DNA of 64,000 bases from NCBI GenBank assembly GCA_003220345.1, contig QHSC01000079.1:1-64000 (forward strand), written 5' to 3'. The translations under genes and the position numbers were made by a program. This document shows, in pieces, positions 30,503-38,732 of this stretch (positions within the stretch are counted from its first letter, which is position 1; each line of letters opens with the position of its first letter). Source of the DNA: Candidatus Rokuibacteriota bacterium (GTDB taxonomy: Bacteria > Methylomirabilota > Methylomirabilia > Rokubacteriales > CSP1-6). The notes below the pieces were generated by a model. That model saw nothing but the letters and a program-made list of their open reading frames with translations, had not been told where the DNA came from and searched no databases.

Positions 30503-31255
30503 TCAGAACTCCATGAACTCGCACCCGAAGGTCGGGTTGACACCCGCGATCGCGTAGCGAACCTTGCCTTCCTCGTCGGCCTGGCCGCAGGCGCCGGTCT
30601 TCGTGGTCAAGATCTTCTGGGCCTCGAAGATCCAGGAGGGGCCCTTGGTCTTGGCGTTCGGATCCATCGGCCGCTCTTCCAGCGTCGATACGTTGATGAC
30701 CCCGCAGGTTCCCGCCGGCCCGCGGTTGCTCACCCAGACGCGGGATGCGTTCTGGATGAACGTCTCGCGCCACGAGCTGGTCCGGATCTTACAGGTCCGC
30801 GTCTCCTTGCTCAGCATGAACCAGCTGAACTCGCGGAGGGTCTGAGGCGACGGCTTGGCGCAGAAGGCCCGCATCCGCTGCATGGCCTGGCTCACGAAGG
30901 CCTTCTGGTTCTCGCCCACTCGGGGAGAGGCGGCCAGGTCTCGGTACTGGGCGGCGAAGTCCTTCTCGTTGCCGCACACCGCCTTCGTGGTCGCCTCGAA
31001 CGGCTGCTGCTTGAGATTGTTCTCGAGCTCGGCGCGGGCGGCTTCCGGAGTCTTCACCCGTGACACCTTGACGTGAACGAATCCGCACGTCATCTGGCTG
31101 CCGTCGGCGCTCTTTTCGCACTCGACGGTGACGGCGGCGGCGTCTTTCGGGTCGATGGCCCTGAGCGTTCCCAGGGAGACCACCTGAGCGGAGGCCGGAA
31201 TAGCGACGGTGAGAACAAGACCCGCGAGTGACACGAGCACCCAGAGTTGACGCAT
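30503..31255 (-). CDS. Secreted hypothetical protein
   Basis: 250 residues with a clear signal peptide (MRQLWVLVSLAGLVLTVAIPASAQ). The mature protein contains at least seven Cys (including CEKS, MTCGF, AVCGN, AFCAKPS, RTCKIR, GTCGV, GACGQ, FGCEF), likely paired as disulfides outside the cytoplasm. Helical middle region ETTKAVCGNEKDFAAQYRDLAASPRVGENQKAFVSQAMQRM. No family recognised and no catalytic motif obvious. AAAGGGGAT lies before the ATG. Diverges from the MFS transporter across a repeat-bearing gap. Confidence 0.75.
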   Translation of the reverse strand: MRQLWVLVSLAGLVLTVAIPASAQVVSLGTLRAIDPKDAAAVTVECEKSADGSQMTCGFVHVKVSRVKTPEAARAELENNLKQQPFEATTKAVCGNEKDFAAQYRDLAASPRVGENQKAFVSQAMQRMRAFCAKPSPQTLREFSWFMLSKETRTCKIRTSSWRETFIQNASRVWVSNRGPAGTCGVINVSTLEERPMDPNAKTKGPSWIFEAQKILTTKTGACGQADEEGKVRYAIAGVNPTFGCEFMEF

Positions 31256-31367
31256 GAGCCGATCCCCTTTCGGATAGTCGACGTGCCAGCGATGAGACGA
31301 TGTGTGGAACGTAAACCGTCCCATCGTAGCATCTCCGAGCGCCGGATCAGCCGAACTCTCCGCGCAT

Positions 31368-31491
31368 CTGCACTGGGGCAATTTGCGTCGCCAGATCAAC
31401 TCAGCCCTCGCCTCGGCGGCCGAGCCGCTCAGCTCGAACTGCCACGTTGCGAGCGGGCCGGCAAGCCAAGCGCAACTTGCCCCAGTGCCAG
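31368..31491. repeat. Dispersed repeat copy D within a terminal-inverted-repeat element
   Basis: Ends are imperfect inverted repeats: CTGCACTGGGGCAATTTGCG (31368-31387) and the complement of CTGGCACTGGGGCAAGTTGC (31491 side). Between them is TCAGCCCTCGCCTC...GCTCAGCTCGAACTGCC, the block pair also seen at copies A-C. Length ~124 bp and structure suit a small non-autonomous mobile element. Confidence 0.65.
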
Positions 31492-31527
31492 TGCCCAAAC
31501 TGATTCAGTGCCCGGCGCCGCGCAACG

Positions 31528-31533
31528 TATACT
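31528..31533 (+). promoter_or_regulatory. Candidate -10 element, leaderless start of the MFS gene
   Basis: TATACT ends 7 bases before the ATG at 31541 and no Shine-Dalgarno sequence is present, so the transcript would start at or next to the start codon. The -35 region is not convincing. Confidence 0.4.
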
Positions 31534-31540
31534 CGGGCGC

Positions 31541-32728
31541 ATGCCCGTCCTTCTCGCCGCCGCCGGCTTTCTGCTCGTCGGGCTCGACGGCTCCCTCAAT
31601 ATCGCGTTCCCCGCCATGGCCGCCGCCTTCGACGTCGGGCCGACCACCATCCGGTGGGTCATCATCTGCTACGTCGGGACGTATTCGCTGACGGCCTTCG
31701 CGGCCGGCGTGCTCGCCGACCGGCTCGGGGCCGGGCGCGTCGTGCGCGCCGGCCTGCTCCTCTCGCTCCTCTGCTTTCTCGCCTTCGCCATCGTGCCCTC
31801 CTTCGCGGCGTTGCTCGTGGTCCGCGTCCTCCAGGGCGTGAGCGGGGGCCTCATCTACGGCGCCGCGCCTGCCCTGGTGACACTGGCTCTGCCGCCCTCA
31901 CGCCACGGCTGGGGCCTGGGCTGGGCGAGCTTCGGTCTGGGCGTGGGTCTGGGCCTGAGCCCGCTCGTCGGAGGATTTCTCGTCGAGGCCTTCGGCTGGA
32001 AGGGCGTGTTTCTCTATCGTGTGCCCGTGGCGGCAGCCATCATCGCGCTCGCCGTGTGGATGCGCGAGCCCCGCCGCGGTTCAGCCGCGACGTGGCGAAT
32101 GGTCGTCCCCGCGGATATCTTGCGCTGGCCCGTGATCCACGCGGGGGCCCTCGCCTTCCTCGCGAACTTCGCCCAGTTCTCCGTGTGGCTCCTCGCCCCG
32201 TTCTATCTCGTGACGGAGCGCGGGCTCTCGGCCGCGGTGGGAGGGCTGCTCTTCATGCTGACGCCGCTCGCCACCGCCGCGGCGGCGCCCCTGAGCGGAC
32301 GCGCCACCGATCGCTGGGGGCGCCGCGGGCCCGTGATCCTGGGCCTGGCCGTCGAGGCGGCGGGACTCGTGATGGTCGCGCGCTGCGGCGCCGCCACGCC
32401 GCTGGCCCTGGTGGGCGCCGCGCTCGCTCTCGTCGGCCTCGGCCTGGGTGTCTTCCAGGTGCCGAACATCGCGCAGACCATGGCCGCGTTCCCCGCGCGC
32501 CAGCAGGGCACGGCCGGCGGCTTTGCCTTTCTCTCCCGCACGCTCGGTGTCGTGATCGGCGTGCAGAGCGCCGCGTGGCTATTCGGGGCCCGCGCCGCGG
32601 CCCTCGGGTTCTTGCCGGCCTTCCGCTTCACGTTCGACACCGCGGCCGTCGTGTGCGCCGTGGCGGCGCTCCTCGCCCTCCTGCCCGCCCGCGAGCGCGC
32701 GGCGCGTCGGGCCGGGCTCGAGGCCTGA
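31541..32728 (+). CDS. MFS transporter
   Basis: 395-residue major facilitator with about 12 hydrophobic segments. It begins LLAAAGFLLVGLDGSLNIAFPAMAAAFDVGPTTIRWVIICYVGTYSLTAFAAGVLADRLGAGRVVRAGL, with the DRLGAGR loop of motif A and GGFLVEAFGWKGVFL of the drug-efflux (EmrB/QacA-like) branch. C-terminal half has DRWGRRGPVILGL. Substrate unknown. It stands 138 bases before the UGSC selenoprotein fusion on the same strand, so it might transport that system's substrate or product (inference). Confidence 0.88.
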   Translation: MPVLLAAAGFLLVGLDGSLNIAFPAMAAAFDVGPTTIRWVIICYVGTYSLTAFAAGVLADRLGAGRVVRAGLLLSLLCFLAFAIVPSFAALLVVRVLQGVSGGLIYGAAPALVTLALPPSRHGWGLGWASFGLGVGLGLSPLVGGFLVEAFGWKGVFLYRVPVAAAIIALAVWMREPRRGSAATWRMVVPADILRWPVIHAGALAFLANFAQFSVWLLAPFYLVTERGLSAAVGGLLFMLTPLATAAAAPLSGRATDRWGRRGPVILGLAVEAAGLVMVARCGAATPLALVGAALALVGLGLGVFQVPNIAQTMAAFPARQQGTAGGFAFLSRTLGVVIGVQSAAWLFGARAAALGFLPAFRFTFDTAAVVCAVAALLALLPARERAARRAGLEA

Positions 32729-32866: not shown

Positions 32867-34453
32867 ATGGACATCGTCGATCCCGTCGGCTCCTCCGCCG
32901 CCACCTCGCGGAGCCTGGCCGCCCGCCCCGCCTCGCTCGAGGGCGTGACCATCGCGCTCCTCGACAATTCAAAGCCCAACGCGAAGGAACTGCTGGAGCG
33001 CCTCGGCGCGCTGCTCGCGGCTCAGGCGGGGGCGCGCGGGGTCCGCGTGTGGAGCAAGCCCGGCTCGTCCGTGAGCGCCACCGCGGCCGTCCTCGAGGAG
33101 ATCGCGAGGAGCGCGCGCGTCGCGCTCACCGCATCGGCCGACTGAGGGTCGTGCACGTCGTGGAGTGTCCACGACGCAGCGGAGCTGGAGGCGAGGGGAG
33201 TGGCTTGTGTCGTGGTCGGCACCGATGAATTCCTTCCTCTGGCCCGCGCCCAGTCGGCGGCCCGCGGGCTTCCGGAGCTTCCCGTGGTCACGGTGCCGCA
33301 TCCCATCGGCGGCATCGCGCCCAGTGTCGCCGCGGCCAAGGCGGAGCCGGTCGCGGCGAGCGTGTTGCGCGCGCTGACCTCCGCGCCGTCGGCCGCCTCG
33401 GCGGCGGGCGCAGCCACGGGTGGCATGCGGGGGGCGCCTTCCGATCTCGACGAGTTCCAGGGCTGGCTCATGGAACAGGGCTGGGGCGATGGACTGCCCG
33501 CGATCCCGCCCACGGCTGAGCGCGTGAAGCGGATGCTCGCGGGGACGCGGCGCGAGCCCGAGGAGATCGTGGCCGTGGTCGTGCCGAGGCTGGGGAGGGC
33601 GACCATCGAGGCCGTGGCGGCCAATGCCGTCATGGCGGGAGCGCTGCCCGAGCACATGCCGGTGATCCTCGCGGCCGTCGAGGCCCTGGCGGACCCGTCC
33701 TTCAACCTGCAGGCCGTGCAGACGACGACCCATCCCTGCTCGCCGCTTCTCATCGTCAATGGTCCCATCGCGCGGCGGCTCGGGATCAACGCCGCGGGCA
33801 ACGCTCTCGGACAGGGCGCGCGGGCCAATGCCGTGATCGGCCGCGCGGTGCGGCTGACGCTGCAGAACATCGGAGGCGCGCGTCCCGGCAAGGAGGACCG
33901 GGCAACTCATGGCCACCCGGGCAAGTACAGCTATTGCGTCGCCGAGAACGAGGCGGCTTCGCCCTGGGAACCGCTCTCCGTCGAGCGCGGCTTCTCTCCC
34001 GCGGACAGCACGGTGACGGTCTGCGGATCGGAGGCGCCTCACAATATCAACGATCACGGGACGGCAACGCCGGAGGGCCTGGTGGCGACGGTGGCGGGCA
34101 CCGCGGCCACGACGGGATCGAACAATATCTATCTGGGTGGCGAGCCGCTCATCGCCCTCGGGCCCGAGCACGCGGCGACGGTGGCCTCGAGGGGCTGGAA
34201 GAAGGACGACTTCCGGCGGGCCGTGTGGGACGCCGCAGCCGTGCCCCGGGGCCGCTTCACCTCCGAGAACCTCGCCCGCTTCGAGGCGATCTATCCCGAG
34301 GGCTTCGCGGACCGGACTTCCGCGGCGGTGTTACGGATCTCCCGCGACTGGCGGGACATCATGGTCATCGTGACGGGCGGCGCGGGCAAGCACTCGGCCT
34401 TCATCCCGACCTTCGGGGCCACTCGCTCGGTGACGCGAAAGATCATCGAGTGA
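32867..34453 (+). CDS. UGSC selenoprotein domain fused to uncharacterised C-terminal domain, in-frame UGA at Sec93
   Basis: 528 residues when the TGA at 33143-33145 is read as selenocysteine. Residues ~25-165 form a UGSC-type domain: GVTIALLDNSKPNAKELLERLG..., then ASAD-U93-GSC96-TSWSVHDAAELEARGVACVVVGTDEFL and VVTVPHPIGGI. The motif U-G-S-C at this position defines the known UGSC family of selenoproteins. After an Ala/Ser/Gly-rich linker (~165-185) comes a ~340-residue domain (QGWGDGLPAIPPT, NAVMAGALPEHMPVILAAVEALADP, NGPIARRLGINAAGNALGQG, HGHPGKYSYCVAENEAASPWEPLSVERGF) homologous to the separate gene at 37150. A perfect hairpin follows the UGA. The ATG at 32867 lacks a strong ribosome site. 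Function unknown; redox chemistry at U/C is likely. Confidence 0.87.
33146..33176 (+). promoter_or_regulatory. Putative SECIS hairpin of the UGSC fusion gene
   Basis: Starting 11 nt after the UGA, CGUCGUGG (33156-33163) pairs perfectly with CCACGACG (33169-33176) around loop AGUGU (33164-33168). The loop starts 19 nt after the UGA and has G at loop position 2, as in bacterial SECIS elements. Geometry identical to the hairpin at 38494. Confidence 0.8.
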
Positions 34454-34462
34454 GAGCCTTTT

Positions 34463-35278
34463 TCAGCCGCGTGCGGCAGCTTCGAGCATGCGGACCTCGT
34501 GGGCGGTGACGGGGACGCCGATGCGCCGCGCCCGGAAGGCCTCGACGAGGCCCTGATAGATCTCGGCCTCGGCCGGCACCACGTCCACCACGCGCACCCA
34601 GGGCTCCACGGTGAGCTTGATCCCGCCCGCCTCCACCGCGCCGATGCCGAGGCTGGGAGTTGGGTCCTTGAGGACGCGGATGTTGGCGTCGACGATCTGC
34701 CGGCAGGCCTCGAGGGCCTGGTTGAGGTCGGCGTGATGGGGGACGTGGACGGCGAGATGCAGCTGCCGCATCGTCCCGAAGTTGTGCAGGATCTCGCCGA
34801 CGATCTTCCGGTTGGGGATGATGACGCGCGAGTGGTCCGGGTGGACGAGGATGGTCGAGGACAGGGTGATCATGGACACGTCGCCCTTCTCCTCGTTTAT
34901 CTCGATGTACTCGCCCACGCGGAAGGGCTTCGTGAAGATGATGGTCAGCCCCGCCATGAGGTTGCCGAGCACGCCCTGCATGGCGAAGCCCACGCCGAGA
35001 CCGGCGACGCCGATACCCGCGACCAGCGGCGCGATGGAGAAGCCGAACTTGTCGAGGGCGACCACGCCGGCCATGACCACGATGAGGAGCTTGATGACGC
35101 GCACGAAGAGGTGCCGCATGGGCGGCTCCATCTGCTGCTTCTGGAAGCGCCGGTCGACGAGCCCGCCCAGCCATTTCGCGGCGATGAATCCCACCGCGAG
35201 AATGGCCAGCGCGCCCAGCACCTGAAAGCCGTAGCGAACGAGGAGGTCGAGGGTCAATTCCTTGACGGTCATGTTCAT
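34463..35278 (-). CDS. MscS-family mechanosensitive channel
   Basis: 271-residue small-conductance mechanosensitive channel of standard MscS size. N-terminal membrane helices (LLVRYGFQVLGALAILAVGFIAAKWLGG; HLFVRVIKLLIVVMAGVVALDKFG), the pore helix region PLVAGIGVAGLGVGFAMQGVLGNLMAGLTIIFTKPFRVGEYI, then the beta domain with IMITLSSTILVHPDHSRVIIPNRKIVGEIL-like residues and the C-terminal alpha-beta domain. Opens on membrane tension to release osmolytes. AAGGAG lies 6 bases before ATG 35278. Convergent with the selenoprotein fusion gene, 9 bases apart. Confidence 0.92.
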   Translation of the reverse strand: MNMTVKELTLDLLVRYGFQVLGALAILAVGFIAAKWLGGLVDRRFQKQQMEPPMRHLFVRVIKLLIVVMAGVVALDKFGFSIAPLVAGIGVAGLGVGFAMQGVLGNLMAGLTIIFTKPFRVGEYIEINEEKGDVSMITLSSTILVHPDHSRVIIPNRKIVGEILHNFGTMRQLHLAVHVPHHADLNQALEACRQIVDANIRVLKDPTPSLGIGAVEAGGIKLTVEPWVRVVDVVPAEAEIYQGLVEAFRARRIGVPVTAHEVRMLEAAARG

Positions 35279-37149: not shown

Positions 37150-38199
37150 ATGACAATCCAGATCGAGTCCAAGCGCTATCCGGTCGAGGACCTGGCCCAC
37201 GCCATCGAGTTCTGCTACCAGCAGGGGTGGACGGACGGGCTGCCGGTGGTGCCGCCGACCGAGCGGGCCGTCCAGGCCATGCTGGAGGCGGCCGGGCTCG
37301 AGCCGCGGCACCAGGTCGCCTTCATCACCAATCGCCAGGTGGCCGTGACGGCCGAGAAGATCGCCATCAATGCTGTCATGGCCGGGTGCCTGCCGGAGTA
37401 CATGCCGGTGGTGGTGGCCGCCATCGAGGGCATCGCCGACCCCAAGTGGGGCTACCACGGCCCCGCCACCTCGACGGGCGGCGCCGCCGTGCTCATGATC
37501 GTCAACGGCCCCGTGGCCGCCCGCTTGAAATTCAATTCCGGCGACAATCTGTTCGGGCCGGGCTGGCGATCGAATGCCACCGTTGGTCGCGCCGTGCGGC
37601 TCGTGATGCGAAACGTGATCGGGACCCTGCCCGGCGCCCTCGATCGTGGGACGGTGGGCCATCCCGGCAAGTACAGCTACGTCATCGCGGAGAACGAGGC
37701 GGAGAGTCCGTGGACGCCTCTGCACGTCGAGCGCGGCTTCACGCCCGAGCAGAGCACGGTCACCGTCATGTCGGCGGAGGGCCCCCACCAGTTCTACAAC
37801 CAGCTCTCGAGCACGGCCAAGGGCGTTCTGACTTCTCTCTGCGAGGACATGAAGCACCACGGCAGCACCAACGGCCAGCCGCAGTACTGCGTGGTGCTGG
37901 CGGGCGAGCACATGCGTACCATCGCCAACGACGGCTGGTCCAAGAAGGAGATCCAGCAGTTCGTGTACGAGAACACGCACAACTCGGTGGCCCACCTCAA
38001 GCGCACGGAGCGGCTGGCGGGTGCGCTGACCGCCGCCGACGAGACGACCATGCGACCGCTCGTCCCCAGCCCTCAGGATGTGCTGGTGGTCGCGGCGGGG
38101 GGCCGGGCGGGGGCCTTCTCCTGCTACATCCCGGGGTGGGCGGGGGGCAAGAAGTCGTCGCAGAGCATCACGAAGCTCATTTCAGACAGGAGGGCATGA
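37150..38199 (+). CDS. Uncharacterised UGSC-partner protein
   Basis: 349-residue soluble protein with no function I can name. It is clearly homologous to the C-terminal ~340 residues of the UGSC fusion at 32867. Shared blocks: QGW-x-DGLP-x-x-PPT, NAVMAG-x-LPE-x-MPV, AA-x-E, NGP-x-A-x-RL, N-x-x-x-N-x-x-G-x-G, GRAVRL, GHPGKYSY, AENEA-x-SPW-x-PL-x-VERGF-x-P, STVTV. The conserved Asn, His, Glu and Arg residues suggest an active site. The stop overlaps the start of the stand-alone UGSC selenoprotein gene (ATGA), so the two are translationally coupled. Fusion at one locus and coupling at the other imply a physical or catalytic partnership. Not visibly Sec-containing itself. Confidence 0.85.
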   Translation: MTIQIESKRYPVEDLAHAIEFCYQQGWTDGLPVVPPTERAVQAMLEAAGLEPRHQVAFITNRQVAVTAEKIAINAVMAGCLPEYMPVVVAAIEGIADPKWGYHGPATSTGGAAVLMIVNGPVAARLKFNSGDNLFGPGWRSNATVGRAVRLVMRNVIGTLPGALDRGTVGHPGKYSYVIAENEAESPWTPLHVERGFTPEQSTVTVMSAEGPHQFYNQLSSTAKGVLTSLCEDMKHHGSTNGQPQYCVVLAGEHMRTIANDGWSKKEIQQFVYENTHNSVAHLKRTERLAGALTAADETTMRPLVPSPQDVLVVAAGGRAGAFSCYIPGWAGGKKSSQSITKLISDRRA

Positions 38200-38732
38200 T
38201 GGCCATGGAGATACTCGATCCGACGGTGGAGCCGCGGAAGCAGCCCCTGACGTTCGTGCCGCGCCCCGACTCCCTCACGGGCAAGCGTATCGGGCTCGTG
38301 GAGAACACGAAGTACAACTCGGACAAGATCCTCGCCAAGATCGGCGAGATCCTCAAGAGAGAGTACGGGGCGGCGGAGTGCACGATGTGGCGCAAGCACA
38401 ACTCCAGCGTGCCCGCCCACCAGGAGATCATCGACGAGGCGAAGCGCGGCGTCGACGTCGTGGTCGCCGGCATCGGCGACTGAGGGTCCTGCTCGTCGGG
38501 CAGTGTGCTCGACGGAATCGTGTTCGAGAAGGTCGGGATCCCCGCGGCGTCGATCGTGACGGACGTGTTCGAGGGAACGGGACGGGCCATGGCTGTGGCC
38601 TGGGGCGTGCCGAACTACAAGTTCCTCGCCCTGCCGCACCCCATCGCGAACCTGACTGACGCGCAGCTGGAGCAGCGGGCGAGAGAGATCGCACCGGAGA
38701 TCGTGAAGCTGCTCCTTCAGGGCCAGGAATAG
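38196..38732 (+). CDS. UGSC-motif selenoprotein, in-frame UGA at Sec96
   Basis: 178 residues when TGA 38481-38483 is read as selenocysteine: KRIGLVENTKYNSDKILAKIGEIL..., VDVVVAGIGD-U96-GSC99-SSGSVLDGIVFEKVGIPAASIVTDVFEG, WGVPNYKFLALPHPIANLT. This is the known UGSC family of selenoproteins; the reaction is unestablished. The layout around U-x-x-C, followed by a GIP.ASIVTD strand and a later PHPI.N motif, recalls the selenoprotein B subunit of glycine/betaine reductases, which is my inference. ACAGGAGGG precedes ATG 38196, which overlaps the partner-gene stop. A SECIS-like hairpin follows the UGA. Read conventionally it would seem two short genes. Confidence 0.9.
38484..38514 (+). promoter_or_regulatory. 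Putative SECIS hairpin of the UGSC selenoprotein
   Basis: Starting 11 nt after the UGA, CGUCGGGC (38494-38501) pairs with GCUCGACG (38507-38514), one G-U pair, around loop AGUGU (38502-38506). Stem length, loop sequence and distance from the UGA equal those of the hairpin at 33156, with pairing kept despite base changes in the upper stem. Confidence 0.8.

Follow-up and report, generated by a model that had tools for sequence, protein, structure and literature searches.

A UGSC-family selenoprotein and its uncharacterised partner: a candidate two-component selenoenzyme encoded by translationally coupled genes

Results

A gene for an uncharacterised protein (hereafter named the partner) and a gene for a selenoprotein of the UGSC family lie in translationally coupled arrangement at positions 37150–38732 of a 64,000-nucleotide stretch (the window) from contig QHSC01000079.1 of Candidatus Rokuibacteriota bacterium, assembly GCA_003220345.1. 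Comparison with other genomes leaves little doubt that UGSC and partner constitute one functional unit, and it is likely that they form a direct complex. Taken as a whole, the best explanation is a two-component PrdAB/GrdBE-like selenoenzyme, on which our confidence is evenly divided. The features of the pair, and of a natural fusion of the same two modules located upstream, are the following (Sec, selenocysteine; SECIS, selenocysteine insertion sequence):

37150–38199, plus strand: partner protein gene, 349 amino acids by direct translation, with no internal stops
38188–38193, plus strand: Shine-Dalgarno sequence AGGAGG of the UGSC gene, inside the 3' end of the partner gene
38196–38199, plus strand: ATGA stop/start overlap; alternative UGSC starts at ATG 38199 and ATG 38205
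38196–38732, plus strand: UGSC-family selenoprotein gene, 178 amino acids, PF24696 / NF041046
38481–38483, plus strand: Sec codon TGA (U96) in the UGSC motif; Cys in some homologues
38493–38515, plus strand: SECIS-like hairpin (10 bp, 3-nt loop) just 3' of the Sec TGA
32867–34453, plus strand: fusion selenoprotein of 528 amino acids, UGSC domain followed by partner domain (Sec codon 33143–33145; partner domain about 33431–34450)

The coupled gene pair

The translations agree with the sequence-only reading of this DNA, which had described a free-standing 349-residue protein followed by a 178-residue UGSC selenoprotein. The UGSC frame contains a single in-frame TGA, codon 96, within the motif GD-U-GSC, and the Cys of this motif is residue 99. 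The protein was identified as a family member by both PF24696 (E=4.4e-58, 196.6 bits against a cut-off of 25) and NF041046 (143.6 bits against a cut-off of 125). The names of these families give no function, and the partner falls outside both models. The description of the partner as uncharacterised was borne out, since no Pfam, NCBIfam or PDB match was obtained for it.

The stop codon of the partner gene (TGA, 38197–38199) forms the ATGA overlap that had been proposed, although the start codon implied by this overlap is doubtful. Three candidate ATG codons of the UGSC gene are present at 38196, 38199 and 38205, at distances of 2, 5 and 11 nt from the Shine-Dalgarno sequence. The true start is probably ATG 38199 (in a TGATG overlap) or ATG 38205 rather than ATG 38196, because the AGGAGG, a perfect Shine-Dalgarno sequence, is better spaced for them. 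Translational coupling of partner and UGSC stands whichever ATG is the start.

Pairing of UGSC and partner across genomes

In the separate pair the partner comes first, opposite to the order in the fusion, as the sequence-only reading had pointed out. That reading took the two arrangements as evidence that the proteins form a complex or catalyse successive steps, a proposal that random neighbourhoods of UGSC genes in other genomes would have contradicted. Neighbourhood analysis was run and the neighbourhoods were not random; adjacency, co-occurrence, covariation of copy number and natural fusions all support the proposal, and of its two forms the complex is favoured. Among 95 genomes of the phylum, 71 held both families and 23 neither, one held UGSC only and none the partner only, and the copy numbers of the two families were correlated (Spearman rho 0.97). 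Each of the 7 UGSC genes of the source genome has a partner copy on its contig and strand.

Relatives of the partner were searched in one genome per species (84,980 species). At least 572 were obtained and 80 loci were kept, which together with the source-genome loci gave 97 partner occurrences; 7 of them were cut by contig ends and were excluded. At 80 of the 90 untruncated loci, a UGSC gene lay no more than 1.5 kb away on the strand of the partner. Fusions included, these linked loci showed the order partner-UGSC in 57 cases and UGSC-partner in 23. An independent sample, not selected by the partner, consisted of 398 Pseudomonadota genomes that were searched for UGSC with the centre genome set aside. 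Four genomes with 5 UGSC genes were detected, and the partner was on the same strand and less than 100 bp away in all five cases. Natural fusions (82 checked) had the order UGSC-partner in 80 and partner-UGSC in 2, with 63–207 nt between the matched domains. Adjacency or fusion is usual in Methylomirabilota, Chloroflexota, Pseudomonadota, Binatia, Acidobacteriota, Nitrospinota and Actinomycetota, and in one haloarchaeon.

Exceptions to linkage were found mainly in Poribacteria. In five genomes of this group (L061, L069, L071, L076, L097; L134–L137, L139) the single UGSC gene and the partner copy are unlinked. Their partner copies lack part of the C-terminal region, and this was the sole group seen with systematic unlinking.

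Probable homology of UGSC to the Sec-bearing domain of GrdB

A weak NCBIfam match of UGSC to the D-proline reductase protein PrdB was observed (E 0.04). UGSC scored 13.4 bits with TIGR04483, whose cut-off is 300, and the UGSC protein did not match PF07355 (GrdB). The weak PrdB match led to a direct comparison of UGSC and GrdB profiles, for which the GrdB genes of relatives were read through their TGA, giving sequences such as TUGTCTRCGATMAKEFERMG. Along 93 columns, hhalign matched UGSC to the read-through GrdB profile and placed Sec on Sec (probability 94.7%, E 6.3e-8); for a smaller GrdB alignment the probability was 93.4%. No match was obtained with a GrdB alignment ending before the Sec; the match appeared only after TGA read-through. 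As negative control, the partner was compared with the GrdB profiles and gave 1–2%. These profile alignments make it very likely that UGSC is a short protein remotely homologous to the C-terminal, Sec-bearing domain of GrdB/PrdB, with the U-x-x-C motifs of both aligned.

In a separate observation, Rokubacteria were found to encode GrdB-family proteins with an in-frame TGA (L193–L206) in which the Pfam GRDB match stops just short of the Sec codon. Standard annotation would truncate these proteins because the Pfam match ends before that codon.

Structure prediction and the partner family

The window fusion was modelled with AlphaFold2; the input alignment had 127 sequences, 78 of them natural fusions, and the two domains of the protein comprise about 185 and 340 residues. 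The model had a predicted local distance difference test (pLDDT) score of 95.7 and a predicted template modelling (pTM) score of 0.94. Since such a pTM for a two-domain protein requires confident relative placement, the model indicates that close contact of the UGSC and partner domains in the fusion is likely. When the fusion model was searched with foldseek, only generic Rossmann-like and RecJ matches were retrieved. The predicted UGSC domain has alternating beta strands and alpha helices, and its Sec comes after the third strand; in a thioredoxin fold the U/C-x-x-C motif is located between first strand and first helix.

Comparison of 67 partner members with Pfam and with NCBIfam gave no recurrent family match, including none to Gly_reductase (PF09338), and a sequence search of the PDB with the partner gave none either. 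The partner modelled alone reached a pLDDT of 94, and foldseek against the PDB found no match to its whole fold. The near-invariant residues of the family are D29, N74, A78-G79, C80 (92%), N119-G120-P121, N142, G146-R147, N155, E181, E183 and W188. Of these, D29, N74, N119-G-P, N142, R147, N155, E181, E183 and W188 are candidate active-site residues, if by analogy with the GrdB and PrdB systems the partner is the substrate-binding component.

Selenocysteine coding

All 7 UGSC genes of the source genome have exactly one in-frame TGA, aligned at the same motif position; this, together with the PF24696 E-value given above, shows that the UGSC assignment is not due to chance. A tRNA-Sec with anticodon UCA and SelB are also encoded in this genome. 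Over the UGSC domains counted, 193 have the TGA and 16 do not; Cys occupies the Sec position in homologues from Candidimonas, Natrialba, Mycobacterium gordonae and an Alcaligenaceae strain. Directly 3' of the TGA, 42-nt windows have a mean folding energy of -15.8 kcal/mol, compared with -10.3 kcal/mol elsewhere in these genes (179 post-TGA windows against 3227 others; Mann-Whitney p 6e-51). A hairpin directly 3' of the UGA, as expected of a bacterial selenoprotein, is present as judged by stable folding. One diverged fusion of the source genome (L022:14653–16227) has USTC instead of UGSC and has kept the in-frame TGA.

Expansion in groundwater genomes

The largest number of copies was found in a Chloroflexi metagenome-assembled genome (MAG) of 5.0 Mb, NC_groundwater_644 (G110; loci L093 and L153–L192), with at least 151 matches to the fusion profile. 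Among the 150 matches listed, fusions that contain a single TGA number about 115, and 18 fused copies lie on one 350-kb contig. Within the 779 kb covered, 110 UGSC and 110 partner domains were counted, and 105 of the 110 UGSC domains were paired. An in-frame TGA was present in 107 of these UGSC domains and in none of the partner domains. Solute-binding proteins of family 5 (SBP_bac_5) made up 54 of the 89 neighbouring genes. SelB is present in this genome, and a tRNA-Sec looked for in the assembly was not found. A strain mixture cannot explain the many different copies on single contigs, but it may inflate the total.

An alternative genetic code was considered for this MAG and rejected, as TGA ends 12 of the 54 solute-binding-protein genes and, by the counts above, is absent from the interior of the partner domains. 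A Betaproteobacterial groundwater MAG (G109; L064, L108) contains 32 UGSC genes, with one TGA in nearly all those listed.

Surroundings of the pair

The commonest same-strand neighbours of the pairs (n=111) were TctC receptors, SDR dehydrogenases, luciferase-like monooxygenases, CoA-transferase III, MFS proteins and amidohydrolases. The neighbours are transporters and catabolic enzymes, with no one constant third gene. In the window, the following gene is placed directly 5' of the fusion:

31247–32728, plus strand: MFS transporter gene

The separate pair begins about 2.7 kb 3' of the fusion, and the interval contains minus-strand frames at 34463–35278 and another extending to about 37000. Between fusion and separate genes, the partner domains are 42% identical and the UGSC domains 34% identical. 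In other Rokubacteria a homologue of the MFS gene stands before the fusion, the separate pair or both. Two relatives (L044 and L046) carry fusion, partner and UGSC in this order within 3.8 kb, with the MFS gene ahead in L044, and in two others (L043 and L045) the MFS gene is directly ahead of the separate pair.

Discussion

Proposed enzyme

GrdB and PrdB work with a GrdE or PrdA subunit that binds and activates the substrate, whose carbon is attacked by the Sec, and GrdB paralogues take different substrates. A GrdB-like operon has been proposed for C-F cleavage of monofluoroacetate (PMC10838667). Like GrdB/GrdE and PrdB/PrdA, the UGSC pair combines a second subunit with a Sec protein whose U-x-x-C lies in a homologous domain. 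It differs from them in that UGSC does not have the long N-terminal region of GrdB, that by profile the partner is unrelated to GrdB, and that many of the hosts are probably aerobic lineages of soil or sea. By analogy, partner and UGSC would associate stably, the partner binding a small organic substrate and orienting it, a role equivalent to that of PrdA or GrdE although the protein family is unrelated. Sec96 would attack an activated carbon of the substrate, displacing a leaving group, and Cys99 would resolve the selenium adduct to give a selenenyl sulfide, which would be reduced by a thiol donor as in D-proline reductase. Overall, a C-N, C-O, C-S or C-halogen bond would be cleaved reductively as a step of a catabolic pathway; in the window, the neighbouring MFS transporter would probably take up the substrate. 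PrdAB-like chemistry of this kind is plausible by analogy, if short of an even chance.

Several observations weigh against such an enzyme. For none of the family members did we find biochemical data. The partner has no detectable similarity to PrdA or GrdE and no evident pyruvoyl-forming residue; none of 67 partner sequences matched the family of the second subunit of GrdBE and PrdAB, which carries a Cys-derived pyruvoyl. The listed neighbour families included none of GrdA or GrdC/D type. The foldseek matches of the partner are weak and do not cover the whole fold. Poribacteria hold both genes at separate loci, and three partner copies of the source genome (L023:9345–10349, L024:15–845 and L025:14–604) have no UGSC gene seen nearby, two of them being cut by contig ends. 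Inter-domain mean-field coevolution was too shallow to read (191 pairs, effective number 165, 482 columns).

Alternative explanations

The pair might instead be a two-component redox system acting on thiol-disulfides or peroxides, in which UGSC would be a thioredoxin-like Sec/Cys oxidoreductase and the partner a protein or small-molecule client. Most Sec-x-x-Cys proteins are thiol oxidoreductases, and a thioredoxin-like fold was guessed for UGSC by the authors of the 2008 work (PMC2398784). However, the predicted Sec position after the third strand is unlike that of thioredoxin, the profile match of UGSC is to GrdB, and more than 100 copies accompanied by solute-binding proteins fit substrate diversification and not general redox defence; we consider this system unlikely. 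A hydro-lyase-like enzyme, with the partner as a distant relative of class I fumarases and UGSC giving an acid/base group or an electron, was suggested by the top foldseek matches of the partner, which are class I fumarate hydratases (6mso, E 3.8e-4; 7xky, probability 0.89). The likeness does not extend to the whole fold, with TM-scores of 0.2–0.38 and root-mean-square deviations of 15–19 Å, and it finds no counterpart in recurrent sequence matches of the 67 members. Moreover, the three-Cys Fe-S ligand set of class I fumarases is missing, because the partner has a single largely conserved Cys, C80, which is Ala in the window fusion. An enzyme of this type is very improbable.

Successive pathway steps without a complex, fusion and coupling serving only to balance expression, would be compatible with the separate genes that are spaced by hundreds of bases and with the unlinked genes of Poribacteria. 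The short linkers of the 82 fusions, which occur in both orders, and the confident relative placement of the domains (the pTM of the fusion) speak for a complex, which is favoured for these reasons, and no genome of the phylum sample has a partner without UGSC; independent steps are improbable. Descent within Rokubacteria could conserve a functionally meaningless gene order, set by chance or lineage. Since the arrangement is met again in many phyla and in the independent Pseudomonadota sample, in either order and also as fusions, this explanation is already contradicted and its probability is negligible.

Relation to earlier work and significance

The sequence-only reading had called the two-component selenoenzyme undescribed. 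This holds only in part: pairing as a unit is supported here, whereas fusion of UGSC to a conserved domain, Unknown_1, was noted by Zhang and Gladyshev in 2008 (PMC2398784), so that the fusion itself is not new. As far as the accessible part of that paper goes, Unknown_1 is probably the same domain as the partner, and free-standing coupled pairs, the reversed order, the GrdB homology and the mass expansion are not described in it (PMC2398784). In the literature searched, no report was found of obligate cross-phylum pairing, of the separate coupled pair, of the GrdB relationship or of the expansion; Haft and co-workers, in their studies of selenoprotein neighbourhoods (2023, 2025), may have mentioned the pairing. 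The probable remote homology between UGSC and GrdB is new here.

The upper bound given for bacteria is 63 selenoprotein genes (2026 review, PMC13188914). The UGSC family of the Chloroflexi MAG alone would exceed this bound, about 115 being nearly twice the number, and its expansion suggests a catabolic system for many dissolved organic compounds. We tentatively propose a large, undescribed superfamily of two-component selenoenzymes in which a GrdB/PrdB-type Sec domain acts together with an unrelated substrate-binding subunit, and which would have diversified through duplication to more than 100 substrate-specific copies in one bacterium, many beside their own solute-binding protein. To our knowledge, UGSC has stood among the common bacterial selenoprotein families since 2008 without a function. 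With a near-obligate partner and a chemistry that may be that of GrdB/PrdB, the family gains a testable hypothesis, which defines a complex and a nucleophile and singles out a few residues of the partner.
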